A stretch of 64,000 nt of DNA from Hyphococcus sp. (GTDB lineage Bacteria; Pseudomonadota; Alphaproteobacteria; Caulobacterales; Parvularculaceae): NCBI GenBank assembly GCA_028281665.1, contig JANQJK010000008.1, positions 186,001 through 250,000 of the forward strand, read 5' to 3'. The notes under the pieces were generated by a model, which worked only from the letters and a program-made list of their open reading frames with translations, did no database searches and was not told the DNA's origin. Position 1 is the stretch's first letter. Each line of letters begins with the position of its first letter. The position numbers and the translations under genes are program-made. This document shows positions 31,714 through 46,740 of the stretch, in pieces.

Positions 31714-32169
31714 ATGGTTCTCCCCATGACGAATTCAGATCAAAAAACACCGTCCGCAGATGCTGCATCGCATACGGATGAACGAAGCTGGCGACAGCTT
31801 TCGGAAAACATCCTGACGCTCGCGGTCCGTAAATCGGATCGGATGATCGACGATCGCAGCGGCGACGATGACGCTTTTGATCGCGACGCGCGCGATCTGC
31901 GCCTCTTGATGGGATCGGCGGAGATTGCCGCGCGCATGAACCGGCAACATGAAAAGGAACGCCGCCCGAATGACGAAGCACCGCCCCCGCGTGAGCACAC
32001 CGAAGAAGAACTTAACGACATCTTCCGCAACGTCGTCGCCCGCATCGACCGCCTCGACGCCGACGAGCGCGCAAGAGCGGCAGTCCCGCCTTCGCCGGAT
32101 ACGGGACAGGATGCTCCGCGAAATATTGCAGGACGAAGCGGCCATGGAGTGGCGGATCAATGCGCTTGA
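31714..32169 (+). CDS. GTA g1-like small terminase protein
   Basis: 151-residue first gene of the gene transfer agent cluster. The central segment RDLRLLMGSAEIAARMNRQHEKER is typical of the g1 family, which acts as the small terminase and recruits DNA to the packaging motor. The remainder is charged and probably disordered. The ATG at 31714 follows GGGAGG at good spacing; a second ATG four codons later is an alternative. Its 3' end overlaps the large terminase by about 59 bases. Confidence 0.75.
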   Translation: MVLPMTNSDQKTPSADAASHTDERSWRQLSENILTLAVRKSDRMIDDRSGDDDAFDRDARDLRLLMGSAEIAARMNRQHEKERRPNDEAPPPREHTEEELNDIFRNVVARIDRLDADERARAAVPPSPDTGQDAPRNIAGRSGHGVADQCA

Positions 32170-33385
32170 GCACCAACTCGAACCGCCCGGCGACGACTGG
32201 ACCACATGGCTCATCCTTGGCGGGCGAGGGGCGGGCAAGACCCGCGCCGGCGCCGAGTGGATCCGCGCTCTCGTCTGGGGCCGCGCCAACGACAATCGCG
32301 GCGCGCCGCCGAAAGCCCGCGCCGTCGCGCTGGTCGCTGAAACATACGCCGATGCGAGGGAAGTCATGATTGACGGACCCTCCGGCATTGTCGCCTGCGC
32401 CGCCGAGGCCGGCCGGCCCGCTTACGAAGCGTCGCGCCGCCGCCTCGTCTGGCCGAACGGCGCCGTCGCCCATTGCTTCTCCGCGGAAGACCCGGACGGC
32501 ATTCGCGGCTACCAGTTCGACGCCGCCTGGAGCGACGAGCTTGCAAAATGGCGGTATGCGGACGAAACTTGGTCGAACCTGCAACTGGCGTTGCGCCTCG
32601 GCGCCCGCCCGCGCCAGATCGCAACGACGACCCCGCGGCCCATCGGGCTGATCAAGCGGCTGATGGCGGCGAAGACAACGGCGCTCACCCGGGCGACGAC
32701 GTACGACAATCGCGCCAACCTGTCGGAAGCGTTTTTTACCGAGATCGCCGCCGCCTACGAAGGAACGGCGCTCGGGCGCCAGGAGCTGCTCGGCGAGATC
32801 ATCGACGATGTGGCCGGCGCGCTCTGGAACTGGGCGATGATCGAGGCGGCGCGCATTTCTCATTATCCGCCGCTCTCGCGCATTGTCGTGGCGGTGGACC
32901 CGCCGGCGACGGCGGGCGAGGCCGCGGACGAATGCGGCATCATTGTCGCCGGCGCGACGTCGAACGAATCGGAGAGCCGCGTTGCGTATGTGCTCGCCGA
33001 TTGGTCGGCGGCGGGGCTTTCCCCCCGTCAGTGGGCGGACAGAACCGTCGCCGCCTTCCATGAGTTTGAAGCGGACCGGATTGTCGTCGAAGTCAATCAG
33101 GGCGGCGACATGGCCAAGGCCGTGATCGCCCAGGCCGATCCGTGCGCTCCGGTGCGCGGCGTTTACGCAACCCGCGGCAAGCGCCTGCGCGCGGAACCGG
33201 TCGCGGCGCTTTATGAGCGCGCGCGCGTGCGCCATGCGGGCGCCTTTCCGCAACTCGAAGAACAGATGACGAGTTATGCGGGCGACGGAAAATCGCCCGA
33301 CCGTCTCGATGCGCTGGTCTGGGCGCTGACCGATCTGATGCTTTCCCCCGCGCCGGCGCGTCCCGGCGTCAAGCGGCTCGATTAG
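32111..33385 (+). CDS. GTA large terminase / DNA packaging ATPase (g2)
   Basis: Motor that pumps host DNA into GTA heads. From the ATG at 32111 the protein has 424 residues; the frame is open further upstream but overlaps g1. Walker A is GGRGAGKTRAGAEW near residue 37. Walker B and the catalytic Glu are in QFDAAWSDELAKW. The C-terminal nuclease domain shows IVVAVDPPATAGEAADE and SPDRLDALVWALTDLML, with the expected acidic residues. It is intact. Confidence 0.92.
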   Translation: MLREILQDEAAMEWRINALEHQLEPPGDDWTTWLILGGRGAGKTRAGAEWIRALVWGRANDNRGAPPKARAVALVAETYADAREVMIDGPSGIVACAAEAGRPAYEASRRRLVWPNGAVAHCFSAEDPDGIRGYQFDAAWSDELAKWRYADETWSNLQLALRLGARPRQIATTTPRPIGLIKRLMAAKTTALTRATTYDNRANLSEAFFTEIAAAYEGTALGRQELLGEIIDDVAGALWNWAMIEAARISHYPPLSRIVVAVDPPATAGEAADECGIIVAGATSNESESRVAYVLADWSAAGLSPRQWADRTVAAFHEFEADRIVVEVNQGGDMAKAVIAQADPCAPVRGVYATRGKRLRAEPVAALYERARVRHAGAFPQLEEQMTSYAGDGKSPDRLDALVWALTDLMLSPAPARPGVKRLD

Positions 33386-33396
33386 GAGTGCTCCCT

Positions 33397-34569
33397 GTGC
33401 TGAATGCCTTCATCAACCTCATGCGCGGAACCCCGGCGGAAACCAAAGCCTCCGCGGCGAAAGCCCTGATATCCCTGCACCGGCTGGGTCAGCCGGCCTG
33501 GACGCCGCGGGATTACGCCTCGCTCGCCCGCGCCGGTTTTGAAAAGAACGTCATCGCTTATCGCTGCGTGCGTCTCGTCTCAGAGGCGGCGGCGTCCGCG
33601 CCCCTTGCCGTGTCAGAGGACGGCGCATTGATGGCGGACCACCCGCTCGCGCGCCTCCTGGCGGCGCCCAACCCGGAACAGTCTGGCGCGGAACTGCTGG
33701 AGAGTTTTTACGGGTTCCTGCAAACCGCGGGCAACGGATATCTCGAAGCGGCGCTCATCGACGGCGCACCGCGCGAGCTTTACGTCTTGCGGCCGGATCG
33801 CATGAAAGCGCGTCTCGGCGCCGGCGGGTGGCCCGAGGCGTGGGATTACGCCGTCAACGGACGCACCGTGACGTTTCGCAAGGCCGCCGACGAGATGTCG
33901 CCGATCCTGCATCTGAAACTCTTTCATCCGACCAACGATCATTACGGCCTTTCCCCGCTGGAGGCGGCGGCGGCGTCGGTGGATCTTCACAATGCGGCGT
34001 CGGCCTGGAACAAGGCGCTGCTTGACAATGCGGCGCGGCCCTCCGGCGCGCTCGTCTATAAAGGGCCGGAAGGCGCGGAAAATCTGACGGCGGAACAATT
34101 CGACCGTCTGAAAGCCGAGCTTGAAAACACCTATCAGGGCGCGGCCCATGCGGGCCGTCCGCTCGTGCTCGATGGCGGCCTTGAGTGGCGCACCATGTCG
34201 CTCTCCCCGGCGGAGATGGATTTTCTTGACGCCAAGAACAATGCGGCGCGGGAAATTGCGCTTGCCTTTGGCGTGCCGCCCATGCTGCTCGGCATACCGG
34301 GCGACAACACCTACTCGAATTACCGCGAGGCCAATCTCGCTTTCTGGAAACAGACGGTGCTGCCGCTGGTGAAGAAAACCGCCGCCGTATTGACCGCCTG
34401 GATGAAGCCGGCCTTTCCCGGCGCCGCCATCCTCTGTCAGACCACGGAGATCGATGCGCTCTCCGCCGACCGCGATCAGCTCTGGCGCCGCGTTACCCGC
34501 GCGGATTTCCTTAACGACGATGAGAAGCGCGCGCTGCTGGGGCTGGCGCCGTGCGAGGAGGAAGGCTGA
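33397..34569 (+). CDS. GTA portal protein (g3)
   Basis: HK97-type portal of 390 residues, forming the DNA entry ring at the head vertex. Family features are AGFEKNVIAYRCVRLVSEAAAS, GNGYLEAALIDG, PTNDHYGLSPLEAAAASVDLHN in two halves, and PPMLLGIPGDNTYSNYREA. The GTG at 33397 is preferred because AGGAG lies 8 bases before it; a GTG at 33388 is 3 bases after the terminase stop and has no such site. The stop overlaps the next ATG (TGATG). Confidence 0.92.
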   Translation: MLNAFINLMRGTPAETKASAAKALISLHRLGQPAWTPRDYASLARAGFEKNVIAYRCVRLVSEAAASAPLAVSEDGALMADHPLARLLAAPNPEQSGAELLESFYGFLQTAGNGYLEAALIDGAPRELYVLRPDRMKARLGAGGWPEAWDYAVNGRTVTFRKAADEMSPILHLKLFHPTNDHYGLSPLEAAAASVDLHNAASAWNKALLDNAARPSGALVYKGPEGAENLTAEQFDRLKAELENTYQGAAHAGRPLVLDGGLEWRTMSLSPAEMDFLDAKNNAAREIALAFGVPPMLLGIPGDNTYSNYREANLAFWKQTVLPLVKKTAAVLTAWMKPAFPGAAILCQTTEIDALSADRDQLWRRVTRADFLNDDEKRALLGLAPCEEEG

Positions 34570-35324
34570 TGTTTCAACGCAACAGCAATCTGTCCGATCT
34601 TCCCGGCGAAAGCCGGGACCCAGAAACGGTTCCATTATGGACCCCGGCTTTCGCCGGGGAGGCCGGGGGTCGGGTCGCGACCATCGAAGGCTACGCCGCC
34701 CGCTACAATGAGCCGGATCTCAACGGCGACATCATCGCCCCCGGCGCCTTTGCAAAAACGCTGAAGCACCGATCAGCGCCCGTGCGCATGCTCTATCAGC
34801 ATGCGAGCGAGACGCCGGTGGGCCGCTGGACCGGCTTTCGCGATACGCCGGCGGGGCTCGTCGCCACGGGCGAGATCCTGCTCACATCGCAAAAGGCGCG
34901 CGAAGTGTTCGCGCTGATCGCCGGCGGCGCCATTGACGGGCTCTCCATCGGCTATCGCGCCGTCCGCGCCCGCAAGGGGCGGGGCGGAAGCGGCCGGCGC
35001 ATTCTTGAGGCCGATCTTTGGGAAGTCTCCATCGTGACCTTTCCCATGGCCGCCGGCGCGCGCATCACCCACATCGAATCGGACGGGGCGGCTGCCCTCC
35101 GCCCGCCCCCCGCAAGGCCCGGCGCCTTCTCCCCCAGGGCGCCGGCGACGCGCGCATCTTCCCCCTCGGCGCGCGTTGCACGCGCCGGCGCGCGCCTGAT
35201 CGCGGAGGCGCATCCGCCGTCCGACCGGCGGGCGTTCAGTCCTCCCCTCCTGAACGCCCGCCATTTCATCTCCGCCGTTCGCGATGCGGCGTCAATTCTA
35301 TCAGTAAACGGAGTAAAAAGGTAA
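34569..35324 (+). CDS. GTA HK97-family prohead protease (g4) with an in-frame palindrome
   Basis: Maturation protease of 251 residues that trims the capsid protein. The core starts at about residue 38 (RVATIEGYAARYNEPDLNG). The catalytic His is in LYQHASETPVGRW and the Ser in AIDGLSIGYRAVR. Residues about 12-32 are a translated family-2 palindrome (LPGESRDPE ... WTPAFAGE), an N-terminal extension not expected in the family. The last 75 residues are Pro/Ala/Arg-rich and low complexity. The ATG overlaps the g3 stop (TGATG). Confidence 0.88.
   Translation: MFQRNSNLSDLPGESRDPETVPLWTPAFAGEAGGRVATIEGYAARYNEPDLNGDIIAPGAFAKTLKHRSAPVRMLYQHASETPVGRWTGFRDTPAGLVATGEILLTSQKAREVFALIAGGAIDGLSIGYRAVRARKGRGGSGRRILEADLWEVSIVTFPMAAGARITHIESDGAAALRPPPARPGAFSPRAPATRASSPSARVARAGARLIAEAHPPSDRRAFSPPLLNARHFISAVRDAASILSVNGVKR
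34599..34663 (+). repeat. family-2 palindromic repeat inside g4, copy 2
   Basis: Arms CTTCCCGGCGAAAGCCGGGA / CCCCGGCTTTCGCCGGGGA lie within the first 32 codons of the prohead protease and are translated in frame. Confidence 0.88.
35227..35262 (+). other. perfect 13-bp hairpin near the 3' end of g4
   Basis: GGCGGGCGTTCAG / CTGAACGCCCGCC around a pyrimidine-only 10-base loop (TCCTCCCCTC). It lies 64 bases before the major capsid start. There is no T-run, so it is not an ordinary terminator. It could protect or process the capsid mRNA; this is inference. Confidence 0.7.
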
Positions 35325-35325
35325 G

Positions 35326-36567
35326 ATGACTATTGAAACCAAGGCGAGTGACGCGTCCGTCGAGAGCTATGAAGTCCGCGGCGCCATGCGCGAGTTTCTG
35401 GGTGCGTTCGAGCAGTTCAAGGAGGCCAATGACGCCCGGCTCGACGCGCTTGAGGAAAAGAAAACCGACGATGTGGTGCTGATCGAAAAGATCGACCGCA
35501 TCAATGAGGCCGTGACCGAGCAAAAGCGACAGGTCGACGCCCTGGCGCTGAAATCGAAACGCCCGGCGCTCCACGAAGGCGCGCCCGTCGCCCCGGATGA
35601 GCGCAAGGCCGCCTTTCAACGCTATATGCGCGCGGGCGACGCCAGCGCCGTTGCGGCGCTTGAACAAAAGTCGCTGAACGCCGGCACGGACGCCCAGGGC
35701 GGTTATCTCGCCCCGGAAGAAACGGCGCAGATCGTTGCACGGGCGGTGAAGGACATCTCGCCGATCCGGCAGATCGCGTCGATCCGCGAAATCGGTGCCA
35801 ACGTCTTCCGCAAGCCGGTCTCCAATGGCGACGCCGCCACCGGCTGGGTCGGCGAAACCGGCGCGCGGCCCGAAACGACGGCGCCCACCATCACCGCCGT
35901 CGACTTTCCGACCATGGAACTCTACGCCATGCCCGCCGCCACGCAGACGCTTCTTGACGACGCGGTGGTCGACATCGAGCAATGGCTCGCCGACGAGGTG
36001 CAGGGCGAATTTGCGATCCAGGAGTCCGCGGCTTTCGTGAATGGGGACGGCATCAACCAGCCGAAGGGCTTTCTCGACTATACGATTGCGGAAGAGTCTG
36101 TCCGCGCCGCCGGTCAGCTTGGCTATGTGGCGACCGGCGTCGATGGCGGCTTTCCGGCGTCGAACCCGTCCGACGTCCTGCTCGATCTCATATACACGCC
36201 GAAACAGGCGTTCCGCGCCAATGGCCGCTTCGTGCTCAACCGGTCCGTGCTCGGACAGTTGCGCAAGTTCAAGGACGCCGACGGCAATTATCTGTGGCAG
36301 CCCTCGGCTCAGGCGGGCGAGCCGGCGCGGCTTCTCGGCTATCCGGTCACGGAGGCCGAAGACATGCCCGATATCGCCCTTGGCAGTCATTCGATTGCGT
36401 TCGGCGATTTTCGGCGCGGCTATCTGATTGTCGACCGGGTCGGCGTGCGCGTCCTGCGCGATCCGTACTCCGCCAAGCCCTTCGTTCTTTTCTATACGAC
36501 GAAGCGCGTCGGCGGCGGCGTTCAGGATTTCGACGCCGTCAAGTTCCTGAAGTTTTCAGTGAGTTAA
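35326..36567 (+). CDS. GTA major capsid protein (g5), HK97 family
   Basis: 413 residues. Residues 1-100 form a coiled-coil delta/scaffold region (FLGAFEQFKEANDARLDALE) expected to be removed by g4. The shell domain begins near LEQKSLNAGTDAQGGYLAPE, with typical HK97-fold segments EIGANVFRKPVSNGDAATGW, AMPAATQTLLDDAVVDIEQW and the P-loop GDFRRGYLIVDRVGVRVLRD. AAGGT lies just before the ATG at 35326. The frame is intact and length is normal. Confidence 0.95.
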   Translation: MTIETKASDASVESYEVRGAMREFLGAFEQFKEANDARLDALEEKKTDDVVLIEKIDRINEAVTEQKRQVDALALKSKRPALHEGAPVAPDERKAAFQRYMRAGDASAVAALEQKSLNAGTDAQGGYLAPEETAQIVARAVKDISPIRQIASIREIGANVFRKPVSNGDAATGWVGETGARPETTAPTITAVDFPTMELYAMPAATQTLLDDAVVDIEQWLADEVQGEFAIQESAAFVNGDGINQPKGFLDYTIAEESVRAAGQLGYVATGVDGGFPASNPSDVLLDLIYTPKQAFRANGRFVLNRSVLGQLRKFKDADGNYLWQPSAQAGEPARLLGYPVTEAEDMPDIALGSHSIAFGDFRRGYLIVDRVGVRVLRDPYSAKPFVLFYTTKRVGGGVQDFDAVKFLKFSVS

Positions 36568-36575
36568 GCGCCAAT

Positions 36576-36676
36576 CCTCCCCCATTAATGGGGGAGGTGT
36601 CTGCGAAGCGGACGGAGGGGCGCTTTTTAAACCCCCTCCGGTCCTTCGGACCGCCTCCCCCGCAGGCGGGGGAGGG
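36576..36676 (+). repeat. family-3 palindromic repeat at the g5/g6 junction, copy 1
   Basis: Compound repeat: CCTCCCCCATTAATGGGGGAGG, then GGTCCTTCGGACC, then CTCCCCCGCAGGCGGGGGAG. The GCGGACGGAGGGG and CCCCCTCCGGTCC segments also pair. It fills most of the 136-base gap between capsid and g6. A shorter relative lies at 38747. Confidence 0.85.
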
Positions 36677-36703
36677 GCGCGACACCAAAAGGACGCAAAA
36701 AAA

Positions 36704-37249
36704 ATGTCCCTAACACTCATCGCCCCGGCTGCGGCCGAACCGGTGACGCTTGCTGAACTGAAAGAGCACATCCGCGTGACGGACGCATCGGAAGACGCGT
36801 TTATCGCCGGCGCGCTCGCCGCCGCCGTGCGCTCGATCGAGGCGCGCAGCGGCCTTGCCCTTTTGACCCAGGGCTGGCGCCTGGCGCTCGACGCGGCGCC
36901 GCAAGAGACGCTGCTCCTGCCCATCGCGCCGGTGCAGTCCGTGGATGCGGTGACGGTCTCCGCCGCGCCGGTCGATCCGTCCGTATACGAAGCAGCGCCC
37001 GGTTCGCCGGGACGGCTGCGCGTCGCCGCGCCCTGGCCGGCGCCCGCCCGCGCCATCGGCGATATCGCCATCGATTTTACCGCCGGCCATGCAACGCCCG
37101 CCGATACGCCGGGCCCGCTGAAACAGGCGGTGCTGATGCTTGCGGCGCATTTTTACGAAAACCGCGAATCCGCCGGCGAGGCCAGGGTCTATTCCGTGCC
37201 GCGCAGCGTCGACGCGCTGATCGCGCCCTATCGGGAGTTTCGACTGTGA
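36704..37249 (+). CDS. GTA head-tail connector (g6)
   Basis: 181-residue gp6-like head-tail connector that joins portal to tail. Typical features are AEPVTLAELKEHIRVTDASE at the N-terminus, the following AVRSIEARSGLALLTQGWR, and DFTAGHATPADTPGPLKQAV. The stop overlaps the g7 GTG (GTGA). AAAAGGACG lies upstream of the ATG at 36704. Confidence 0.88.
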   Translation: MSLTLIAPAAAEPVTLAELKEHIRVTDASEDAFIAGALAAAVRSIEARSGLALLTQGWRLALDAAPQETLLLPIAPVQSVDAVTVSAAPVDPSVYEAAPGSPGRLRVAAPWPAPARAIGDIAIDFTAGHATPADTPGPLKQAVLMLAAHFYENRESAGEARVYSVPRSVDALIAPYREFRL

Positions 37250-37563
37250 TCGGCGCCCTCAGAAACCGCATCGAGCTCTTGACCTTTACGCGCTTTGACG
37301 ACGACGCCGGCGGCGGCGCAGTCGTCTGGCTGCCGGGCCCGGAAATCTGGGCCCAGGTGACGCGGCTTACCGCGACCCGCGATATCGCCGGCGACCGCAC
37401 GCGGCGACTGAAACGCATCGCCGCGATCATTCGCCATCGCAGCGATATCGCCCTCGGTCAGCAGGTGCGGTTCGACAATGACAATTACGAGGTCGTCAGT
37501 ATCGAGAGCGACGATGGGCGCGCGCGCCGCATCACCCTGATCTGCGAGGAGGTCTCGCCATGA
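37246..37563 (+). CDS. GTA head-tail adaptor / head closure protein (g7)
   Basis: 105 residues of the phage head-closure family. The N-terminus IGALRNRIELLTFTR and the C-terminal VRFDNDNYEVVSIESDDGR are characteristic. It starts with GTG at 37246 overlapping the g6 stop, and its own stop overlaps g8 (ATGA). Confidence 0.87.
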   Translation: MIGALRNRIELLTFTRFDDDAGGGAVVWLPGPEIWAQVTRLTATRDIAGDRTRRLKRIAAIIRHRSDIALGQQVRFDNDNYEVVSIESDDGRARRITLICEEVSP

Positions 37564-37967
37564 CCGATGCATCCCTTTCCTTGCAGAAGGCCGTCTATGC
37601 CTGGCTGATGGCCGATGCGGCGCTGAAGGCGGAAATCGGCGATCCGGCGCGCATCTATGACGACCCGCCGGTGGAGGCGGTGTTCCCGTATCTCACCCTC
37701 GGCGAGTCGAAGGCGCGGGCCCTTGCCGGCGTTGAGGGCGCCCTTGAGCACGAAGTCCGCCTGTACGCCTATTCGAAATATGCGGGCCGGCTGGAAATCA
37801 AGCGCATCATGGGCGCGGTCTACGACGCCCTGTACGACGCGCCGCTGCAACCCCAGGACCATCGGCTCGTCAGTCTACGGTTCATTTTCAACGACGCTTT
37901 CCGCCGCAATGACGGCGAGACCTATCAGGCCGTGTCGCGCTTTCGCGCGGTGACTGAGCCAGCGTAA
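37560..37967 (+). CDS. GTA tail terminator-like protein (g8, DUF3168)
   Basis: 135 residues of the DUF3168 family, which caps the tail tube at the head interface. Visible family segments are LQKAVYAWLMADAALKAEIG, AVFPYLTLGESKAR, and HRLVSLRFIFNDAFRRNDGE. Its TAA shares bases with the ATG of the mini-ORF that leads into g9 (TAATG). Confidence 0.87.
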   Translation: MTDASLSLQKAVYAWLMADAALKAEIGDPARIYDDPPVEAVFPYLTLGESKARALAGVEGALEHEVRLYAYSKYAGRLEIKRIMGAVYDALYDAPLQPQDHRLVSLRFIFNDAFRRNDGETYQAVSRFRAVTEPA

Positions 37968-38128
37968 TGCCGATGACCTGCTTGTCCCTTTATCCATTCA
38001 TTCCCGCGTCCTTCGGGACGCAAAATTCCCTTCACCCTGAGGGCTGCGCAGCAGCGTCCGGAAGGACGAAGGGAATTTTGCTCCTCAGGATGAAGGCGGG
38101 AGTGAATGAGTTGACACTAAGGAGTTAA
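37967..38128 (+). other. bridging mini-ORF at the g8/g9 junction (53 codons)
   Basis: The ATG at 37967 overlaps the g8 TAA. The frame stays open across family-1 copy 5 and ends TAA at 38126-38128, three bases before the g9 ATG; the g9 ribosome site AAGGAG lies inside its last codons. Unlike the mnh mini-ORFs it reads the repeat in another phase. Confidence 0.4.
38008..38095 (+). repeat. family-1 palindromic repeat, copy 5
   Basis: Variable stem CAAAATTCCCTTC / GAAGGGAATTTTG; central hairpin GCTGC-GCA-GCAGC. A/A' is GTCCTTCGGGACGC against GCGTCCGGAAGGAC with one mismatch. Extra flanking arms TCATTCCCGC / GCGGGAGTGA extend it. Confidence 0.9.
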
Positions 38129-38131
38129 ACG

Positions 38132-38554
38132 ATGCCCGCACAACGCGGCAAGGATTTATTGCTGAAAATCGGCGACGGCGGCGCGCCGGAAACATTTACG
38201 ACCATTGGCGGCCTGCGCACGCGCACGCTGTCGCTGAACGCGCAGACCGTCGACGTCACCCATGCGAATTCCGTGGGCGGCTGGCGGGAACTTCTCGCCG
38301 GCGCCGGCGTCAAACAGGCGTCGGTTTCCGGCGCCGGCGTCTTCCTCAACGAAGCGGCGGCGGAAACGGCGCGGGCGGCGTTTTTCAACGGCGATATCGT
38401 CAACTGGCAGGTGATTGTCCCCGGTTTCGGAACCATCGAAGGCCCGTTCCAGATCGGCAATCTCGACTATGCGGGCGACTTCGATGCGGAAGCGACCGTG
38501 TCCCTGGCGCTTGAGTCCGCGGGGCAGCTGGCCTTTACGGCGGCGGCGCCGTGA
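38132..38554 (+). CDS. GTA major tail tube protein (g9)
   Basis: 140-residue TP901-1-like major tail protein. Family features are AQRGKDLLLKIGDGGAPETF, TVDVTHANSVGGWRELLAGA and the C-terminal DYAGDFDAEATVSLALESAG. AAGGAG precedes the ATG at 38132. The stop overlaps a mini-ORF start (TGATG). Confidence 0.9.
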   Translation: MPAQRGKDLLLKIGDGGAPETFTTIGGLRTRTLSLNAQTVDVTHANSVGGWRELLAGAGVKQASVSGAGVFLNEAAAETARAAFFNGDIVNWQVIVPGFGTIEGPFQIGNLDYAGDFDAEATVSLALESAGQLAFTAAAP

Positions 38555-38694
38555 TGAAAGACCTGCTTCCGAATTTTCTCCGCTCATCCCGGCGAAAGCC
38601 GGGATCTCGCGCGGCAAGTGCGGCGCGTGTCTCCGGAGATTCCGGCTTTCGCCGGAATGAGCGGAAAATGAGAACATTGGCGGGCGCCGAGTGA
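38554..38694 (+). other. bridging mini-ORF 1 at the g9/g10 junction (46 codons)
   Basis: The ATG at 38554 overlaps the g9 TGA, and the TGA at 38692-38694 overlaps the ATG of a second mini-ORF (TGATG). It passes straight through family-2 repeat copy 3. Confidence 0.4.
38580..38664 (+). repeat. family-2 palindromic repeat, copy 3
   Basis: Outer arms CCGCTCATCCCGGCGAAAGC / GCTTTCGCCGGAATGAGCGG, wholly inside the g9/g10 junction. Confidence 0.9.
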
Positions 38695-38822
38695 TGCATC
38701 CCGTCAGCATAATGATCATGGGCGCGCCGGTTTTCGGCGCGCTTGTCCCCTCCGTCTCAGCCTTCGGCTTCGACACCTCCCCCGCAAGCGGGGGAGGAGA
38801 GGGCGCGGCGGCGATTGTATGA
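38694..38822 (+). other. bridging mini-ORF 2 at the g9/g10 junction with a copy of the g10 start (42 codons)
   Basis: The ATG at 38694 overlaps the previous mini-ORF stop; the TGA at 38820-38822 overlaps the g10 ATG (ATGA). It begins MHPVSIMIMG, almost identical to g10 residues 5-13 (NPVSIMING). The DNA at 38698-38724 matches 38832-38858 in 24 of 27 bases. It runs through family-3 copy 2. Confidence 0.5.
38747..38803 (+). repeat. family-3 palindromic repeat, copy 2
   Basis: CCCCTCCGTCTCAGCC, then CTTCGGCTTCG, then CTCCCCCGCAAGCGGGGGAG. The last element matches the right end of the copy at 36576. Confidence 0.8.
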
Positions 38823-39145
38823 CCATGACCAATCCCGTCAGCATAATGATTAATGGCGAGACACACCCCTTGCGGCTCACTCTCGGCGCCCTTGCGGAAA
38901 TCGAAGAGGCGCTGGGCGGCGATATGGAAAGCCTGAAGTCACGCCTCGCCAATCCCCGCATCGGCGATCTGTTGCTTATCCTGAATGCGCTTCTGCGCGG
39001 GGGCGGCGTCAGCCTGTCCCTCGAAGCGTTGAAGGCCGCGGATGTGGATCTCGCCGCGGCGACGGTCGCGATTGCCGAAGCGTTTCGCGCGCTGGAGGCG
39101 CCGGGAAAGCCGCCGGCGCCGCCGGCCTCATCGGGGGCGGCGTAG
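38819..39145 (+). CDS. GTA g10 tail assembly chaperone (zero-frame product)
   Basis: 108 residues of the GTA gp10 family. The body reads PVSIMINGETHPLRLTLGAL, then EIEEALGGDMESLK, with a Pro/Ala tail after residue 93. It occupies the position of lambda gpG, between tail tube and tape measure. Near its end the codons CCG GGA AAG create the slippery heptamer G GGA AAG. A -1 slip there joins it to g10.1. The ATG at 38819 overlaps the preceding mini-ORF stop. Confidence 0.85.
   Translation: MTMTNPVSIMINGETHPLRLTLGALAEIEEALGGDMESLKSRLANPRIGDLLLILNALLRGGGVSLSLEALKAADVDLAAATVAIAEAFRALEAPGKPPAPPASSGAA
39103..39109 (+). promoter_or_regulatory. predicted -1 ribosomal frameshift site (G GGA AAG)
   Basis: GGGAAAG is phased exactly as X XXY YYZ in the g10 frame (codons GGA at 39104 and AAG at 39107). 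It is identical to the lambda G/GT slippery sequence. GC-rich inverted repeats follow (GCCGGC-GCC-GCCGGC and GCCGCC with GGCGGC). The slip continues into g10.1 with no intervening stop. Confidence 0.75.
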
Positions 39146-39327
39146 AAAAGTGGCGCGCGTGGTTTTCCTTCGCCGTCCTGCGGCTCGGGCTCTCCCCGGA
39201 CGCGTTCTGGTCGCTGCGCCCCGCCGAGTGGCGGTGGCTGCTCGACGCGGCTCTTGGCGGCGCCGACGCGCTGGACGGCGCCGCGCTCAAATCCCTCATC
39301 CATCAGTATCCGGATAAAACCCTATGA
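39109..39327 (+). CDS. GTA g10.1 (DUF2376) tail chaperone domain, reached by -1 frameshift
   Basis: 72-residue extension in the -1 frame of g10. Its folded part is WRAWFSFAVLRLGLSPDAFW, then SLRPAEWRWLLDAAL, matching the short DUF2376/g10.1 family (FW-x-L-x-PAE-W). From 39001 to the stop this frame contains no ATG, GTG or TTG, so an independent start is unlikely. The TGA at 39325 overlaps the g11 ATG (ATGA), supporting the reading. A fused product of about 169 residues with g10 is predicted, as for lambda gpGT. Confidence 0.75.
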   Translation, partial: AAGAAGLIGGGVEKWRAWFSFAVLRLGLSPDAFWSLRPAEWRWLLDAALGGADALDGAALKSLIHQYPDKTL

Positions 39328-39869
39328 CCGATCGCGTGAACATTACCTATGACGCCGGCGGCCTTGCCGGCGGTCTTGGCGCCGCCGGGGCCGAGATCGA
39401 GCGCATCGCCCGCGACCAGATCGCGCCGGCGGCGGAGCTGATCGAAGATGCGTTCGCCGTGGCGGCGGTGTCGATCCAGTCGAACCTCGCCCGCGCCGCG
39501 GAACGGGGCGAGCTGTCGCTCAAAAAACTGACCCGCGCGCTCACGCAGGATTTGCGCCGCTTCGCCATCGACAGCCTCGTCCGCCGCCCCATCGAAAATC
39601 TCATCACCAATGCGCTGACGGCGCCCTTCGGCGGCGGCCGCGCCGCGGGCGGGCCCGTGGCGGCGGGGCAGCGTTACCTCGTCGGCGAACGGGGGCCGGA
39701 GTTTTTCACCCCCTCCGTCAACGGCGCCGTCTCGCCCATGGGCCCGGCGCCGGTCTCCGTCAATATTCATCTTCCCGGCGTTCAGGATGCGGAGAGTTTT
39801 CGCCGCTCCGAAACGCAGATCGCCGCCGCGCTGGCGAGAGCCGTGGGGCGGGGCAGCCGCAATCTCTGA
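39324..39869 (+). CDS. GTA short tail tape measure protein (g11)
   Basis: 181 residues. The N-terminal half is helical; the C-terminal part carries the tape-measure hallmark GGPVAAGQRYLVGERGPEFF. GTA tape measures are much shorter than phage ones, in line with their short tails. The start overlaps the g10.1 stop. Confidence 0.87.
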   Translation: MTDRVNITYDAGGLAGGLGAAGAEIERIARDQIAPAAELIEDAFAVAAVSIQSNLARAAERGELSLKKLTRALTQDLRRFAIDSLVRRPIENLITNALTAPFGGGRAAGGPVAAGQRYLVGERGPEFFTPSVNGAVSPMGPAPVSVNIHLPGVQDAESFRRSETQIAAALARAVGRGSRNL

Positions 39870-39898
39870 CCCCGCGGAAAGTTGTCGAGTAAAAATCC

Positions 39899-40531
39899 AT
39901 GTCCTTTCACGAAGTCCTTTTTCCCGTCGACATCTCGCTGAACTCCGAAGGCGGGCCCATGCGCAAGACAGATATTGTCGCGCTGGTTTCCGGCCATGAG
40001 GAGCGCAACTCCCCATGGGCGGGCTCGCGGCGGCGGTTCAACGCCGGCTACGGCGTCAAATCCATCGACGACATTGAAGACGTCATCGCGTTTTTCGAGG
40101 CGCGTCACGGCCGGCTTTGCGGGTTCCGCTTTCGCGATCCGTTTGACTATAAAAGCTGCCGCATCGCAGAAACCCCCGGCGCCGAAGACCAGTTTCTCGG
40201 AACCGGCGACGGCGCGGCGAGCGACTTTCAACTGGTCAAACGATACGATTCCGGCGGCGCGTCCTACGCGCGCGATATCAAAAAACCCGTCTCCGGCTCG
40301 GTTCTCATCGCCCTTGACGGCGCGGCGCAGACCATCGGCGCGGACTTTACCGTTGACGACGCCGCCGGCCGCGTCTCGTTCACGGCGCCGCCGGGCGCGG
40401 GCGTTTCCGTCACCGCCGGTTTCCTGTTCGATACGCCGGTTCGTTTCGATGCGGACGAATTGCGCATCAACCTTGCGGCGTTCAAGGCCGGCGATATTCC
40501 GTCGATCCCGCTGATCGAGGTGCTCGTCTGA
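39899..40531 (+). CDS. GTA distal tail protein (g12, DUF2460)
   Basis: 210 residues of the DUF2460 family. Characteristic segments are FPVDISLNSEGGPMRKTDIV, RRRFNAGYGVKSIDDIEDVI, and RLCGFRFRDPFDYKS. It forms the distal tail ring beneath the tube. The stop overlaps the g13 start base (TGATG). Confidence 0.9.
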   Translation: MSFHEVLFPVDISLNSEGGPMRKTDIVALVSGHEERNSPWAGSRRRFNAGYGVKSIDDIEDVIAFFEARHGRLCGFRFRDPFDYKSCRIAETPGAEDQFLGTGDGAASDFQLVKRYDSGGASYARDIKKPVSGSVLIALDGAAQTIGADFTVDDAAGRVSFTAPPGAGVSVTAGFLFDTPVRFDADELRINLAAFKAGDIPSIPLIEVLV

Positions 40532-41406
40532 TGCGCAGCCTCGACCCTGACCTTCAGGCCCATCTTGACGCCGGCGCGACGACGCTCGCCACGTGCTGGC
40601 GCATTACGCGGAGCGACGGCGCAGCGCTCGGCTTCACCGATCACGACCGGGCCCTCACCTTCGACGGAACGACCTTTTCGCCGGAGAGCGGCGCGACCGG
40701 TTCGGCCCTCGCCTCCAGCGCCGATCTCGCCGTCGACAACAGCGACATCGAGGGCGCCCTTGACGATGCGGCGCTCTCCGCCGTCGATCTCGCCGCGGGC
40801 CGTTATGACGGCGCCGCGGTTGAAGTTTTCCGGGTCAACTGGACAGCGCCGGACCAGCGCGTGCTCATGAAGAAAGGGGTTATCGGCGAAATCTCCCGCG
40901 CAGGAGACGCCTTCAGGGCGGAACTGCGCGGGCTTTCCTCCGCGCTCGATCAGCCCGTGGGCCGGGTCTTTCAGCGTTTGTGCGACGTGAATCTGGGCTC
41001 GGCGAAATGCGGCGTCGATCTCAGCGATCCGGCGTTTATGGCGACGGGCGCCGTGACGTCCTTGCGCGACGATCAGAGTTTCATCGCGTCCGGGTTCGCC
41101 GGCTTTAACGACAGTTGGTTCGCCCACGGAGTACTGACCTGGGTGACAGGCGCAAACGCCGGCGCGGCCGCGCACATCAAGTCGCAGACGGCCTCCGGCG
41201 CGGTGGCTCTGTGGCTGCCGGCGGGCGCCGCCGTTGCAATCGGCGATCAGTTCACTGCAACAGCCGGCTGCGACAAACGTTTCGCAACCTGCCGCGACAA
41301 ATTTTCAAACGCCGTCAATTTCCGCGGCTTTCACCTGATGCCCGGCAACGATTTTGCGGTGTCCTATCCGCTGCGCGGCGAAAGGAACGACGGGGGGAAA
41401 CGGTAA
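40531..41406 (+). CDS. GTA tail hub protein (g13, DUF2163)
   Basis: 291 residues of the DUF2163 family. It shows WRITRSDGAALGFTDHDRAL near the N-terminus and four cysteines in RLCDVNLGSAKCGVD and CDKRFATCRDKFSN, which in RcGTA bind an iron-sulfur cluster. Its C-terminal coding end (PLRGERNDGGK) is duplicated 1 kb downstream, just before g14, flanking an insertion. Confidence 0.9.
   Translation: MRSLDPDLQAHLDAGATTLATCWRITRSDGAALGFTDHDRALTFDGTTFSPESGATGSALASSADLAVDNSDIEGALDDAALSAVDLAAGRYDGAAVEVFRVNWTAPDQRVLMKKGVIGEISRAGDAFRAELRGLSSALDQPVGRVFQRLCDVNLGSAKCGVDLSDPAFMATGAVTSLRDDQSFIASGFAGFNDSWFAHGVLTWVTGANAGAAAHIKSQTASGAVALWLPAGAAVAIGDQFTATAGCDKRFATCRDKFSNAVNFRGFHLMPGNDFAVSYPLRGERNDGGKR
41351..41406 (+). 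repeat. left copy of the duplicated g13 3' end
   Basis: Pairs with 42370-42426. Best-conserved part is CGCGGCGAAAGGAACGACGG here versus CGCGGCGAAAGAAACGATGG on the right. Both read PLRGERNDGGK and end in a stop codon. The pair bounds a 1-kb insert. Confidence 0.75.
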
Positions 41407-41429
41407 GGCAAACCCGAAGGAGAACGACG

Positions 41430-41969
41430 ATGGTAAAGAGTAACGAGTTTACGGCGAGCAGTCTCGCTTTGGCTGTAAAGAAAGCGACTGCCGCCTATGA
41501 TCGCCGACGCGGCTTTGAAAGAAAAAACGTTTGCGGTGATCTGGCATTTGAATTTGCGGATGCAAAGCGGACAGCCGGATCGCTACTGGACGATGTTGAG
41601 CGGATGCGACGCGACGCTGAGGCGCTGGAAGAATCGGCGCGCCGCAGCGCCCGCCGCGCGGCAGTTAACGCCGCGATCGCAGCAGCTGTCGGGTTTGGTA
41701 CAGCTGCGCGTGCGCTTCGGATAATCGCGCGTTGGCGCTTCAGAGATCTCGATCGGCGCGATTTGATCAGTCTCGTTCCAGTCGTTGGCGGCGGCGTTGC
41801 CGCCGCGTTGGATGCACTGGCCGCGATTAATGACATCCAGGAAGCAAGACGACTTTTGCGTCGCGCTGAGCAGGCTGAGAGGAGCGCAGACGATCTCGGC
41901 GACGATATACTGCGTCTTGCTGACGAGTACCGTCGCGCCGGCTGCGGTCGTGATCGCGGGACAAGCTGA
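41430..41969 (+). CDS. cargo gene 1 in the g13/g14 insert (unknown)
   Basis: 179 residues from the ATG at 41430 with GAAGGAGAA upstream. The N-terminal half is highly charged and helical; a Gly/Ala/Val-rich hydrophobic stretch (LVPVVGGGVAAALDALAAIN) lies near 115-135; the tail is again charged. It is not part of any canonical GTA set. Codon use is less GC-biased than the flanking genes, a sign of acquisition. No family is recognised. Confidence 0.6.
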   Translation: MVKSNEFTASSLALAVKKATAAYDRRRGFERKNVCGDLAFEFADAKRTAGSLLDDVERMRRDAEALEESARRSARRAAVNAAIAAAVGFGTAARALRIIARWRFRDLDRRDLISLVPVVGGGVAAALDALAAINDIQEARRLLRRAEQAERSADDLGDDILRLADEYRRAGCGRDRGTS

Positions 41970-41978
41970 ATGAATCGC

Positions 41979-42275
41979 TTAATCCGCGAGCCAGCCTGCA
42001 ACGATGTCGCGCAGGAAAAATACCTCGATTGCGGCAATCGCCAGCATCAGGCCGACACCGATGGCGAGCGCGCCCGCAGGCCTTGGCCGCAACGTGCCGG
42101 CGATAGCCCAAAACGCCAGACCGATAAGTACAATCGCAGCAGTGATTGTCGCGGCGACATAAGTGAGGTTAATCCAGAATACGTTGGATACAGCTCTGTC
42201 AGCGGCGGTATAGTAGATGATCCAGAGAAACCACGCCCAGGAAACGATAAGCATTGTATTGCTAAAGCGCTTCAT
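41979..42275 (-). CDS. cargo gene 2 in the g13/g14 insert (three-helix membrane protein)
   Basis: 98 residues on the strand opposite to the GTA genes. Three hydrophobic helices are visible (TMLIVSWAWFLWIIYY, the Ala/Ile-rich centre, and GALAIGVGLMLAIAAIEVFF). It converges with cargo gene 1. The local sequence is noticeably AT-richer than the GTA genes. Function is unknown; with its neighbour it might form a small defence or toxin-like pair, which is speculation. Confidence 0.55.
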   Translation of the reverse strand: MKRFSNTMLIVSWAWFLWIIYYTAADRAVSNVFWINLTYVAATITAAIVLIGLAFWAIAGTLRPRPAGALAIGVGLMLAIAAIEVFFLRDIVAGWLAD

Positions 42276-42369
42276 TGCGGCGGTCTCGGCATTGATCCAA
42301 CTTTGCGGCGTTACGCATCAACTCTAAGCGCAGCACTACGTCCGCGCAACCGATTGCGCTGGTGCATTG

Positions 42370-42426
42370 GTTTTGTCGCAGTCTCCGATCCCTTACGCGG
42401 CGAAAGAAACGATGGCGGGAAGCTGA
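42370..42426 (+). repeat. right copy of the duplicated g13 3' end
   Basis: Ends TGA one base before the g14 ATG (TGACATG), which is probably the original g13/g14 junction. It translates as VAVSDPLRGERNDGGKLT, matching the g13 end at 41351. Confidence 0.75.
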
Positions 42427-42427
42427 C

Positions 42428-42898
42428 ATGAGTGCAGTTCCCACCTTCTCCGCAACCGTTTCCCGCATTCAGATCATTGACGCGGCGCGAGACTGGCTCG
42501 GCACGCCTTACGTGCATCAGGCGAGCGCGAAAGGCGCCGGCTGCGACTGTCTTGGCCTCGTTCGCGGGGTCTGGCGCGAGCTTTATGGAAGCGAGCCCGA
42601 GGCGCCGCCGGCCTACACGCCGGACTGGAACGAACGGCGCTGGAAAAACGGCGCCGGCGAAACCCTGCTGGCGGCGGCCCGGCGCAACATGGCCGGGCGC
42701 GCCGACAAATCCTTCGAACCCGGCGACGTCCTTGTCTTTCGCGTCTGCGCCGACGGTCCCGCGAAACATTGCGGCATCGCCGTCGCGCCGGACCGGTTCG
42801 TCCACGCCTATGCGGGCCGCGCGGTCACCGAAAGCTGGCTGTCGCGCTGGTGGCGGGAGCGTCTCGCCGGAACCTTTATCTTTCCCGGAGCAGAGTAA
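42428..42898 (+). CDS. GTA NlpC/P60 cell-wall peptidase (g14)
   Basis: 156 residues from the ATG at 42428. The catalytic Cys lies in GAGCDCLGLVRGVW and the His in PAKHCGIAVAPDRFVHAY. Tail-tip peptidases of this family cut peptidoglycan during DNA delivery. Its stop overlaps the g15 ATG (TAATG). Confidence 0.92.
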   Translation: MSAVPTFSATVSRIQIIDAARDWLGTPYVHQASAKGAGCDCLGLVRGVWRELYGSEPEAPPAYTPDWNERRWKNGAGETLLAAARRNMAGRADKSFEPGDVLVFRVCADGPAKHCGIAVAPDRFVHAYAGRAVTESWLSRWWRERLAGTFIFPGAE

Positions 42899-45800
42899 TG
42901 GCGCAGCTTATTTTGACCGCGGCGACAAGCATCGGCGGCGGTCTTGGCGGGTTTCTCGTGCGAACTGTCGCAACAACGGCGGCGGCGTACGCCGCGGGCT
43001 ATGTGGACCGTCTGATATTCGGACCGCGCAAGCGCGCCGTCGAAGGCCCGCGTCTTGAAAGTTTCAATGTGCAGGCCAGTCAGGAAGGCGCCGGCGTGCC
43101 CCGGGTCTTCGGCCGCGGGCGGATCGCCGGACAACTCATCTGGGCGGCGAACTTCAAGGAGACGACGTCGGAAACGACCCAGTCCTCCGGCGGCAAGGGC
43201 GGACGTCCCGCGGCGCAAACAACGTTTACGGAGTATCTCTATTCGATCTCCTTCGCCGTCGGTCTTTGCGAGGGAGAAATCGACCGCATCGGCCGCGTCT
43301 GGGCCGACGGCAAACCGTTCGATATTTCCGAGCACAATGTCCGCGTCTATCGCGGCGGCGAAGCGCAACAGCCCGACGCGCTGATCGAATCCGTCGAGGG
43401 CGCGGGCAATGCGCCGGGTTTTCGCGGTCTCGCCTATGTCGTGTTCGAGGATCTGCCGCTGAAGGATTTCGGCAACCGCATTCCGCAACTGTCGTTCGAA
43501 ATCGAAAACAGCCTCAAAAAGGAAGACCCGAACGCGCTTGAAAACACGCTGACCGCCGTGACCATGATCCCCGGTTCGGGGGAATTCGTCTACGGAACCA
43601 CAAGGGTGCTGCGCGAGGAAGGCGAAGGCGTCACCGCGGCGGAAAACGTGAACAACGCGTCCGGCGCCACGGACTTCACCGCCGCCCTCGACGCCCTTGA
43701 GGACGCGGCGCCCAATCTCGGCCACGTGTCGTTAATCGTTTCCTGGTTCGGCGATTCTCTCGCTGCGGGACAGTGCCGGCTCCGCCCCGGCGTCGACGCC
43801 GCGACAAAAACAACGACTCCTTATGGGTGGAAAGTCGGCGGGACGACCCGCGCCGGCGCGCACCTTGTCTCGCAATCGGGCGGCGCCCCCGCCTATGGCG
43901 GCACCCCGGCGGACGCCGCGGTCGTGGAGGCCATCGCATCCTTAAAGTCCCGCAATTTGTCGGTCTTATTCCATCCTTTTATCCTGATGGACGCGGCCGG
44001 CTATCCGTGGCGGGGCCGGATCGACGCCGGCGCCAACGACAAAACCGCCGCCGCCGCGGCGGACATCGCGTCTTTTTTCGGGACAGCGGCGCCGGCGGAT
44101 TTTTCCATTCAGAATGGCGAGGTCGTTTACGCCGGGCCGGCCGAATGGTCGTTCCGGCGCATGATCCTCCACTATGCTCATCTCTGCGTTCTCGCCGGGG
44201 GCGTCGACGGGTTCCTCCTCGGCTCGGAACTGCGCGGCGTCACCACAACCCGCGACGGCGCGTCGGGCTATCCCGCCATCGCCCGGATGAAATCCCTCGC
44301 GGCGGATGTGCGCGCCGTGCTGGGCGGCGGCACGGAGATTTCCTACGGCGCGGACTGGTCGGAATATTTCGGCCATCAGCCGGCGGACGGTTCGGGCGAC
44401 GTTTTCTTTCATCTGGACGATCTGTGGTCCGATGCGTCCATCGACTTTATCGGCATCGACAACTACATGCCCATGGCGGACTGGCGCGACGGCTTTGCGC
44501 ATATAGATGCGCTCGCCGGCGCCCGCGGCCAGCATGACGTCGACTATCTTAAATCCAACATAGACGGCGGCGAAGGGTTCGACTGGTTTTACGCTAATGC
44601 CGCAGACCGCGACGCGCAGACGCGCACGCCGATCAGTGACGGCGCCTATGGAGAGTCGTGGGTTTATCGGTACAAGGATCTCTGGAACTGGTGGTCGAGC
44701 GCGCATCATAATCGCCCCGGCGGCGTGCGCGATGCATCGCCCACAAGCTGGACGCCCCAGTCGAAAAGATTTGTCTTCACCGAAACCGGCGCCCCGGCGA
44801 TCGACAAGGGCGCCAATCAGCCCAACGTGTTTGTCGATCCGAAGTCCGACGAAAGCGCGGTTCCCTATTATTCGAACGGACGGCGGGACGACATGGCGCA
44901 ACGGCGTTTCCTGGAAGCGCAGGCTGCGTTCTGGAGCGACGCCGCCAACAATCCGGTTTCCTCCGTCTACGGCGCGCCCATGGTCGATGGGGCCCGGCGC
45001 TATGTTTACGCCTATGACGCCCGTCCCTTCCCGGATTTCCCGGCGAGGACCGACGTATGGGGGGATGGAGCGAACTGGGAAACCGGGCACTGGCTGAACG
45101 GCCGGCTCGGCCGCGCCCCGCTAGACCTACTGGTCGAGGCGCTGGCGGCGGAGGCGGGGTTTGCCGCTGTCGACGCCTCGGCCCTTGACGGCGTCGTCAC
45201 CGGATATTTGATCGACCGCCCCCTGTCGCCCCGGGAGATGATCGATCCGCTGGCGGATGTTTTCCAGTTCGACATCGTCGAGACCGGCGATCAACTGCGC
45301 TGCCAGCCGCGACACTCCGCCAATGTGCATATGATCGACGCCGCCCGGCTGGCGGAGCGGGAAGACGGCGCCTTCTCCCTGTCCCTCGCGCAGGAGACCG
45401 ATCTCGCCGCCGCCTTCCGGCTCGGCTTTTTTGACGAGGCGCAGGACTTTGCCGCCGCGGTTGTGGAGGCGCGCGACCCCCGTGCGCGGCCCGCTCGGGA
45501 AGCCGGCGTCGATGTGGCGGCCGCCATCCCCGCGGCGGAGGCCGAAGCGCGGGCGCGGTCCATTCTCGCCGATGCGTGGGTGATGCGTGAACAGCTTTCC
45601 TTTTCCCTGCCGCCATCGGCGCTGGCGCTGGAGCCGGGAGACGCGGTCGCCCTTAATGATCTGGGTACGGAGCGGCTCTACCGCATCACGGATATCGAAG
45701 ACGGCGCGGAGCGCGAGGCCCGCCTCGTGCGCGTGGCGCCCTCGATTTACGAAAGCCCGGTCGGCCCGGCGGAATTTTCTGCGGCGCCGCCGGTCAGCGT

Positions 45801-46740
45801 CTATGGGGCGCCCGCCTGGGAGCTTTTTGAGCTGCCGATGATCGAGGGCGCCGAAGCCAGCGGACCCTGGTTCGCGGCGTTCAGCGATCCGTGGCCCGGT
45901 GCCGTCGCCCTTTACCGGGGCGGCGGCGGGACAGAGCCGTTGCTCTCGGGGCTCGCGCCGGCCCGTGCGGTGATGGGCCGGCTCAAAACGGCGCTGGCGC
46001 CCGCCGGCGCCGGCCGCTGGAGCGGTCGGTCGGTCGATGTGGAGTTGTCTTTCGGAACCCTGGCGTCGCGCGCGGCGGACGACGTTCTCGCCGGCGCCAA
46101 TCTCTGCGCCGTTGAAAGTAACAACGGCGCATGGGAGCTGGCGCAGTTTCGGGACGCAGAGCTGCAACCCGATGGAAGCTGGCGCCTGTCGGGCCTGTTG
46201 CGCGGGCAGGCCGGAAGCGACGGAGAGGCGTTGGCGGGAGCGAGCATCGGCGCCCGCTTCGTCCTGATGACCCGCGCGGTCACGCAAGGGACGTTTTCGG
46301 CAAACCTGCGCGGCCTTTCTTTCGACTGGCAGGCGGGCCCCCAGAAGGAAATTCCCGATACGGAGAATTTCACGTCAAGGTCGTTTGCGTTTGAAGCCCG
46401 CGCATTGGCGCCCCTGTCGCCGGTTCACCTGCGCGCGGCCCGCGAGGGCGCCGACATCAGGCTTTCCTGGATCCGCCGGACGAGGGAAGGCGGCGACTCC
46501 TGGGAAGGGGAAGTCCCCTTGAGCGAACAGTCGGAGCGTTACGCGCTCACGATCTATAACGGCGCGGCGCCGCTGCGCGAGATCGAAACGACGACGCCGG
46601 ACTATCTCTACGCCGCCGCGGACATCACCGCGGATTTCGGCCCTGCCGGCCCCGGCGCGGCGATAACATTTTCCGTCGCGCAGATTTCCGATGCGGTGGG
46701 GGCGGGGGATGCTGCGACTCAAGCATCCGCCATCGCCTGA
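42898..46740 (+). CDS. GTA host-specificity / baseplate megatron protein (g15)
   Basis: 1280 residues from the ATG at 42898. The N-terminus has a Gly/Ala-rich segment and the phage tail region FNVQASQEGAGVPRVFGRGR. The centre (about 250-700) is the GTA TIM-barrel-like domain, with FHPFILMDAAGYPWRGR, DWSEYFGHQPADGSGDVFFH, and FTETGAPAIDKGANQPNVF. The C-terminal third contains hub and fibronectin-like regions. It ends the cluster; the frame is intact. Confidence 0.92.
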   Translation: MAQLILTAATSIGGGLGGFLVRTVATTAAAYAAGYVDRLIFGPRKRAVEGPRLESFNVQASQEGAGVPRVFGRGRIAGQLIWAANFKETTSETTQSSGGKGGRPAAQTTFTEYLYSISFAVGLCEGEIDRIGRVWADGKPFDISEHNVRVYRGGEAQQPDALIESVEGAGNAPGFRGLAYVVFEDLPLKDFGNRIPQLSFEIENSLKKEDPNALENTLTAVTMIPGSGEFVYGTTRVLREEGEGVTAAENVNNASGATDFTAALDALEDAAPNLGHVSLIVSWFGDSLAAGQCRLRPGVDAATKTTTPYGWKVGGTTRAGAHLVSQSGGAPAYGGTPADAAVVEAIASLKSRNLSVLFHPFILMDAAGYPWRGRIDAGANDKTAAAAADIASFFGTAAPADFSIQNGEVVYAGPAEWSFRRMILHYAHLCVLAGGVDGFLLGSELRGVTTTRDGASGYPAIARMKSLAADVRAVLGGGTEISYGADWSEYFGHQPADGSGDVFFHLDDLWSDASIDFIGIDNYMPMADWRDGFAHIDALAGARGQHDVDYLKSNIDGGEGFDWFYANAADRDAQTRTPISDGAYGESWVYRYKDLWNWWSSAHHNRPGGVRDASPTSWTPQSKRFVFTETGAPAIDKGANQPNVFVDPKSDESAVPYYSNGRRDDMAQRRFLEAQAAFWSDAANNPVSSVYGAPMVDGARRYVYAYDARPFPDFPARTDVWGDGANWETGHWLNGRLGRAPLDLLVEALAAEAGFAAVDASALDGVVTGYLIDRPLSPREMIDPLADVFQFDIVETGDQLRCQPRHSANVHMIDAARLAEREDGAFSLSLAQETDLAAAFRLGFFDEAQDFAAAVVEARDPRARPAREAGVDVAAAIPAAEAEARARSILADAWVMREQLSFSLPPSALALEPGDAVALNDLGTERLYRITDIEDGAEREARLVRVAPSIYESPVGPAEFSAAPPVSVYGAPAWELFELPMIEGAEASGPWFAAFSDPWPGAVALYRGGGGTEPLLSGLAPARAVMGRLKTALAPAGAGRWSGRSVDVELSFGTLASRAADDVLAGANLCAVESNNGAWELAQFRDAELQPDGSWRLSGLLRGQAGSDGEALAGASIGARFVLMTRAVTQGTFSANLRGLSFDWQAGPQKEIPDTENFTSRSFAFEARALAPLSPVHLRAAREGADIRLSWIRRTREGGDSWEGEVPLSEQSERYALTIYNGAAPLREIETTTPDYLYAAADITADFGPAGPGAAITFSVAQISDAVGAGDAATQASAIA

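Follow-up and report, generated by a model that had tools for sequence, protein, structure and literature searches.

A predicted −1 frameshift between the tail chaperone genes g10 and g10.1 in an RcGTA-like gene transfer agent of the Parvularculaceae

The genes g10 and g10.1 of the window (the whole 64,000-nucleotide stretch of Hyphococcus DNA analysed here) are very probably, with a probability of about 0.9, the two halves of a tail chaperone of the phage lambda G/GT type. They belong to an RcGTA-like gene transfer agent (GTA) of the Parvularculaceae and would be fused by a predicted −1 slippage at the heptamer G_GGA_AAG. Agents of this kind are domesticated viruses that carry host DNA from one cell to another. 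The frameshift device is known from phages and its place in a GTA is new; the switching and the upstream element described below may make it a variant. In this reading we infer that slippage occurs and how often, what the upstream element contributes and what the proteins do.

All features of the pair lie on the forward strand. The g10 gene occupies 38819–39145 in the 0 frame and encodes 108 amino acids; it is defined by its open reading frame, its Pfam match and an AlphaFold model as tail assembly chaperone 1. The computed reading frames confirm the proposal of the initial annotation that g10.1 lies in the −1 frame relative to g10, which it overlaps. This frame is open from 38854 to 39324 (157 codons). 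It had been described as free of ATG, GTG and TTG from 39001 to its stop at 39327, and this proved true of the entire open frame from 38854 onwards. Its near-cognate codons are ATC at 39130, CTG at 39178, 39214, 39238 and 39271, and ATC at 39298. The TGA at 39325–39327 overlaps the ATG of g11 at 39324 to form the ATGA already noted; g11 (39324–39869) encodes a short tape-measure-like protein of 181 amino acids. The sole X XXY YYZ heptamer found in g10 is GGGAAAG, whose recomputed position is 39103–39109, in the exact phase of g10 and with its Lys codon 12 codons ahead of the g10 stop, just as first reported; sequence and conservation both mark it as the slippery site. A Shine–Dalgarno-like TGGAGGC (39093–39099) precedes the heptamer by 3 nt and forms a duplex of −9.3 kcal/mol with the 16S tail. 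From 39109 the −1 frame extension, composed of a linker and the g10.1 domain recognized by Pfam, runs to the stop at 39327. The predicted product (38819–39327) was computed as 169 amino acids, the length originally estimated.

The pair is situated between the genes for the major tail protein (g9) and the tape measure (g11), and both proteins belong by Pfam to tail chaperone families, from which chaperone functions may be assigned to them. The g10 protein matches PF11836 Phage_TAC_11 with 55.6 bits (cut-off 27.8). The Pfam description line of this family reads “Phage tail tube protein, GTA-gp10”, yet its family name is that of a TAC; g9, which matches the tail tube family PF06199, is the better tail tube candidate. 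Two extents of the g10.1 frame match PF09550 Phage_TAC_6, at 48.7 and 51.1 bits (cut-off 23.4), and a genome-wide search with this family returned g10.1 as its single match, at 50.6 bits. The g11 protein matches tape-measure families of PHROG, the best of them at 3.6e-8, and its Pfam tape-measure match of 21.7 bits falls below the 23-bit cut-off. The AlphaFold model of g10 (pLDDT 82.7) is similar to predicted phage proteins that carry the label tail tube or tail assembly chaperone, four of them at E ≤0.001 (best 1.3e-4), and had no match among solved structures. The model of g10.1 is weaker (pLDDT 76.3); its fold search gave no significant match, the top entry being a phage tail assembly chaperone at E 0.41, and protein searches with g10.1 against PHROG and against phages found no match.

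The surrounding cluster, g2 to g15 (31949–46740, forward strand), was delimited by domain matches and synteny. It contains terminase, portal, prohead protease, capsid, connectors, tail tube, chaperones, tape measure, the DUF2460 protein g12, the hub g13 and the NlpC/P60 protein g14, and g15 carries GTA_TIM and Rcc01698_C domains. The order of these genes is that of RcGTA. By this content the cluster is a predicted RcGTA-like gene transfer agent. Among 14 chosen 20-kb regions of Parvularculaceae, 13 hold the cluster in order (in one of these, L270, g7 was undetected). A CxxCxxCC-domain gene flanks one side in 11 of the 13 and a DnaJ gene the other in 9 of the 13, counts in which the 20-kb limit may explain the absences. 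In a g12 tree of 193 of the 238 loci compared, the Parvularculaceae form one side of a branch with an SH-aLRT of 96. Shared neighbours and a supported family branch fit vertical inheritance, as expected of a GTA. The remaining region, L266 of the L009 genome, gave weak matches (24–39%) to six head or tail genes and none to g2, g7 or g10–g15; since this region is without the cluster, L009 is probably not an orthologous GTA.

In the phage lambda G/GT system the heptamer is likewise GGGAAAG. In the proposed mechanism most ribosomes would terminate at the g10 stop, and a minority would slip by −1 on G_GGA_AAG, perhaps aided by the Shine–Dalgarno-like sequence just upstream, to yield the 169-residue g10–g10.1 fusion. 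If the parallel with lambda holds, g10 would cover the tape measure g11, and the tail tube protein g9 would be recruited by the small number of fused molecules. The heptamer, its phase, the frame, the location of the pair between tail tube and tape measure genes and the want of a start in the downstream half are all alike in the two systems. The differences are that the present pair lies in a host-inherited GTA cluster and not in a virus, that its tape measure is very short (181 amino acids), and that a Shine–Dalgarno-like sequence stands just upstream; the protein families (TAC_11 and TAC_6) are named here for the window only.

For comparison across lineages, the PF09550 profile was run against genomes of the window's family, where 35 of 62 gave a match, all above the family cut-off, and likewise against those of its order (124 of 200) and class (45 of 385); the loci L001–L179 are among the matches listed in these searches. 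Through the g12 alignment, named loci were added: of at least 579, the best 80 were taken. Named Parvularculaceae among the loci are Marinicaulis, Parvularcula and Aquisalinus flavus. Of the 260 loci, eight without a g10.1 match (L180, L186, L193, L219, L230, L243, L252 and L255) were set aside. Removal of 8 exact duplicates and of 6 loci in which no g10 could be detected then left 34 Parvularculaceae and 204 other loci. A locus was scored as having a start if its g10.1 frame contained ATG, GTG or TTG anywhere between 60 nt ahead of the g10 stop and 3 nt beyond the beginning of the domain, a definition broad enough that some of the counted starts are chance occurrences. L009 was kept among the 34 although it is probably no orthologous GTA. 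L062, which has GGGAAAA, was counted in the 34-locus table and the codon analysis and excluded from the folding, Shine–Dalgarno, near-cognate and linker-frame analyses (n=26). In the family genus designated g8 (G049–G058), a PF09550 match was obtained in 2 of 10 genomes, 8 of the 10 being listed as at least 99% complete; GTA loss or divergence is a possible cause.

Within the Parvularculaceae the heptamer is kept where g10.1 lacks a start, and a start is present where the heptamer is missing, nearly as the initial annotation had predicted. Heptamer without start was found at 26 of the 34 loci, both at one (L024, with GTG), start without heptamer at six, and neither at one (L009). The 27 heptamers comprise 26 GGGAAAG and the single GGGAAAA, and all 27 loci show the −1 relation. 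An in-phase heptamer near the end of the upstream gene is thus present in 27/34 family loci, against 10/204 outside for the GGGAAA form. Fisher tests of heptamer versus start gave p 3.5e-5 and 4.4e-7, on rows that are related by descent. Along the 193-locus g12 tree the GGGAAA trait requires 7 changes and the start 17; a tree-aware pair test, underpowered with three well-supported independent pairs, gave a median p of 1.

The codons of the slip site provide a line of evidence that depends less on ancestry than these counts of presence and absence. CCG GGA AAG is found there in 25 of the 27 heptamer loci, while GGA accounts for 175 of 1510 background Gly codons (11.6%) in the same loci. The four-fold sites of g12 have a median identity of 0.52 (210 pairs from 21 of the 27 loci), so that synonymous sites are far diverged. 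In-phase GGGAAAG occurs once per 13,192 codons in g10, g11 and g12 of the 27 heptamer loci and three times per 82,295 codons in the other loci, compared with 26 of 34 family loci at the slip site, and its presence there exceeds chance. In the linker, a comparison of frames at 20 of 26 loci gave mean BLOSUM values of 1.83 for the −1 frame, 1.91 for the +1 frame and 0.62 for the 0 frame, so the −1 frame is not singled out. A G-rich stretch just ahead of the g10 stop (39130–39144 in the window, IGGG in the −1 frame) has GGG in 16 of the 20 loci whose linker is sufficiently long and is conserved in more than one frame. Locus comparison, synonymous constraint and synteny together support the programmed −1 frameshift as a prediction.

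It had also been held that relatives with a normal g10.1 start and no slippery site would count against the frameshift. Such loci exist, 168 of 204 outside the family and 6 of 34 inside it; they appear to represent an alternative state, and the site is not displaced in the window's own lineage. The genus designated g2 is itself mixed, with GGGAAAG in L007, L023 and L029, GGGAAAA in L062 and an ATGA start in L005, L006 and L019. L006 has gaggcgccATGA at the place of the window's gaggcgccGGGAAAG, that is, ATGA in lieu of GGGAAAG behind the same GAGGCGCC. In a g12 tree of 27 Parvularculaceae and five chosen outgroup rows, all five of them start-type, the heptamer requires four changes within the family and start-type rows are scattered in the clade. 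The simplest reading of this pattern would be one gain of the heptamer at the base of the family followed by several losses. Judged from the compared loci, the frameshift is not a general GTA trait; the predicted frameshift and start-codon versions replace each other, even inside one genus.

Of the possible stimulators, the upstream Shine–Dalgarno-like sequence is more striking than any downstream structure. Its pairing with the 16S tail averages −9.06 kcal/mol over 26 loci versus −4.08 at random in-frame places (p 2e-13). Synonymous reshuffling gave a mean of −6.69 against −9.13 observed, with 23 of 26 loci stronger than their own reshuffled mean and few singly reaching p 0.05; about half of the pairing excess is due to the amino acids of the linker. 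A spacer of 3 nt separates it from the heptamer at 12 of the 26 loci, and one of 9–12 nt at 4 of them. In the dnaX −1 frameshift, a Shine–Dalgarno sequence about 10 nt upstream acts together with a downstream hairpin. The loci of the family resemble dnaX in having such a sequence upstream of a slippery heptamer and differ from it in a spacer of mostly 3 nt and an unexceptional downstream structure, and so do not show the dnaX-type combination. As the spacing is nearer that of a start site than that of dnaX, a role of the upstream element in slippage is put forward as a hypothesis. The GC-rich inverted repeats described after the heptamer are present, but their standing as a special stimulator did not hold up: three downstream stretches of the window fold as is ordinary for their composition (z −0.25, −0.35 and +0.76), and across the 26 heptamer loci the mean z is −0.75 versus −0.34 in coding controls (p 0.16). 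A downstream hairpin or pseudoknot as stimulator was rejected, folding being no stronger than in controls; only L029 stands out (z −4.4), and Rfam gave no match over 31000–48000. Weaker Shine–Dalgarno pairing goes with stronger downstream structure (Spearman −0.45, p 0.02, among related rows).

The same upstream sequence could instead serve initiation, with g10.1 translated independently from a non-standard start, either the ATC at 39130 or a CTG. Its roughly start-like spacing and the ATGA that L006 carries behind it would suit this explanation, as would the near-cognate codon of some kind that follows the heptamer at 17 of 26 loci. At the other nine (eight if L024, with its GTG, is set aside), however, no CTG, ATT, ATC or ATA lies between heptamer and domain; the near-cognate position wanders from +9 to +51 from the heptamer start, and the ATC of the window stands 27 nt past the heptamer start, far from the Shine–Dalgarno-like sequence. 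With the conservation of the heptamer left unexplained as well, independent initiation is very unlikely.

Translational coupling, in which ribosomes that have terminated g10 would reinitiate close by in the g10.1 frame, is more doubtful again: the frame of the window offers no ATG, GTG or TTG, and at 12 of the 27 family heptamer loci the g10 stop lies at least 10 nt past the start of the g10.1 domain, late for translation of the whole domain. In favour of restart, most relatives possess a start close to where g10 ends, 168 of 204 loci outside the family having a start and no GGGAAA. That g10.1 has decayed or goes unexpressed in the −1 frame is hardly credible, given a domain scoring 50.6 bits, matches above the cut-off in 35 of 35 matching family genomes, a stop that overlaps the g11 start and a heptamer that has been kept, even though a fusion product would be rare in any case. 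Slippage at G_GGA_AAG is the preferred reading throughout.

One study calls G_GGA_AAG highly prone to shifting in E. coli, gives a ratio of about 30:1 for lambda G and GT, and treats −1 frameshifting in phage tail chaperones as established (PMC5009743). In another, two phage tail chaperone genes frameshifted at 6% and 7% in reporter assays (PMC3711429). The tail chaperones of RcGTA have been named 1 (g10) and 2 (g10.5), and the word “frameshift” is absent from the accessible part of that text (PMC11409702); we infer that g10.5 corresponds to g10.1. The g10/g10.1 pair of Rhodobacter capsulatus RcGTA resembles that of the window in gene order and in the GTA_TIM and Rcc01698_C domains of g15, and appears to differ, judged from relatives, in that 41 of 41 named Rhodobacterales loci have a g10.1 start and no GGGAAA heptamer (the named loci being the best 80 of at least 579). 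Rhodobacter phage RcDormio (MW677510.1) has GTA-like tail genes; its chaperone is annotated as a join of two pieces, and the short form contains GGGAAAC in phase, presumably at the place of the join. It differs in being a virus, and its locus, L180, has no g10.1 match by the profile used. No report of frameshifting in GTA g10/g10.1 was found in the accessible parts of open-access (PMC) papers, most subscription papers lying outside this scope.

Outside the Parvularculaceae, some of the loci may belong to prophages and not to GTAs. The 204 loci comprise 168 with a start and no GGGAAA heptamer, 9 with the heptamer and no start, 1 with both and 26 with neither. An in-phase X XXY YYZ heptamer of any kind occurs in 30 of the 35 no-start loci versus 13 of the 169 start loci, against a background of 233 per 82,295 codons; five no-start loci have none. 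The no-start loci include GGGAAA (9), AAACCC (6; Rhodobium, Microvirga and Cohaesibacter among those named) and CCCTTT (13; those named being Hyphomicrobium and one Hyphomonadaceae MAG), and the latter two heptamers are candidate slip sites. The case for AAACCC is weaker than that for CCCTTT, because a possible start is also present in 7 of 13 AAACCC loci versus 2 of 15. CCCTTTC lies mostly at one fixed place, in a “PFPW” motif of g10.1 with an inner start further on, so that coding constraint could explain it; among loci of this layout that lack a start, 12 of 14 use TTT for Phe, compared with 22 of 39 start-type loci (p 0.06). At L087 and L239 the heptamer is directly followed by a stop codon. 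It is conceivable, and offered tentatively as a less than even prospect, that the second tail chaperone has repeatedly switched between a start of its own and a −1 frameshift across alphaproteobacterial GTAs and their relatives. In places ATGA and GGGAAAG would have been exchanged behind the same Shine–Dalgarno sequence, which later served as a frameshift stimulator, and two sites of a rarer type, A_AAC_CCT and C_CCT_TTC, would be used by Hyphomicrobiales and some relatives. If so, the classic RcGTA model would be one of two ways to set the chaperone ratio.

GTAs do not propagate their own genes, and for this reason selection on the host is considered the force that shapes them. Retention of a finely tuned viral decoding device by a host-run element across most of a family would, if real, be evidence that tail assembly in these GTAs still works and is under selection. 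Sister species in which a start codon has naturally taken the place of the frameshift would allow a direct test of whether the benefit of the frameshift is a fixed ratio, a physical fusion or both. In such genomes, gene finders that look only for start codons will probably overlook g10.1 or place its start wrongly.

Several minor observations were made. One alphaproteobacterial-type GTA locus (L216) lies in a record titled Exiguobacterium profundum, a MAG that is probably mislabelled. Between g9 and g10 of the window there is an imperfect, REP-like palindrome with 46-nt arms (38576–38668), and a 27-nt direct repeat of the g10 start (38698–38724 and 38832–38858, 89% alike), a layout reminiscent of a repeat element that split the start of g10 and duplicated it. 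Further downstream, a 44-nt direct repeat (80% alike, spacing 1022, 41356–42421) includes the end of g13 and flanks the stretch between g13 and g14. One ORF tested in this stretch had no Pfam match, and the stretch looks like an insertion or a partial duplication.
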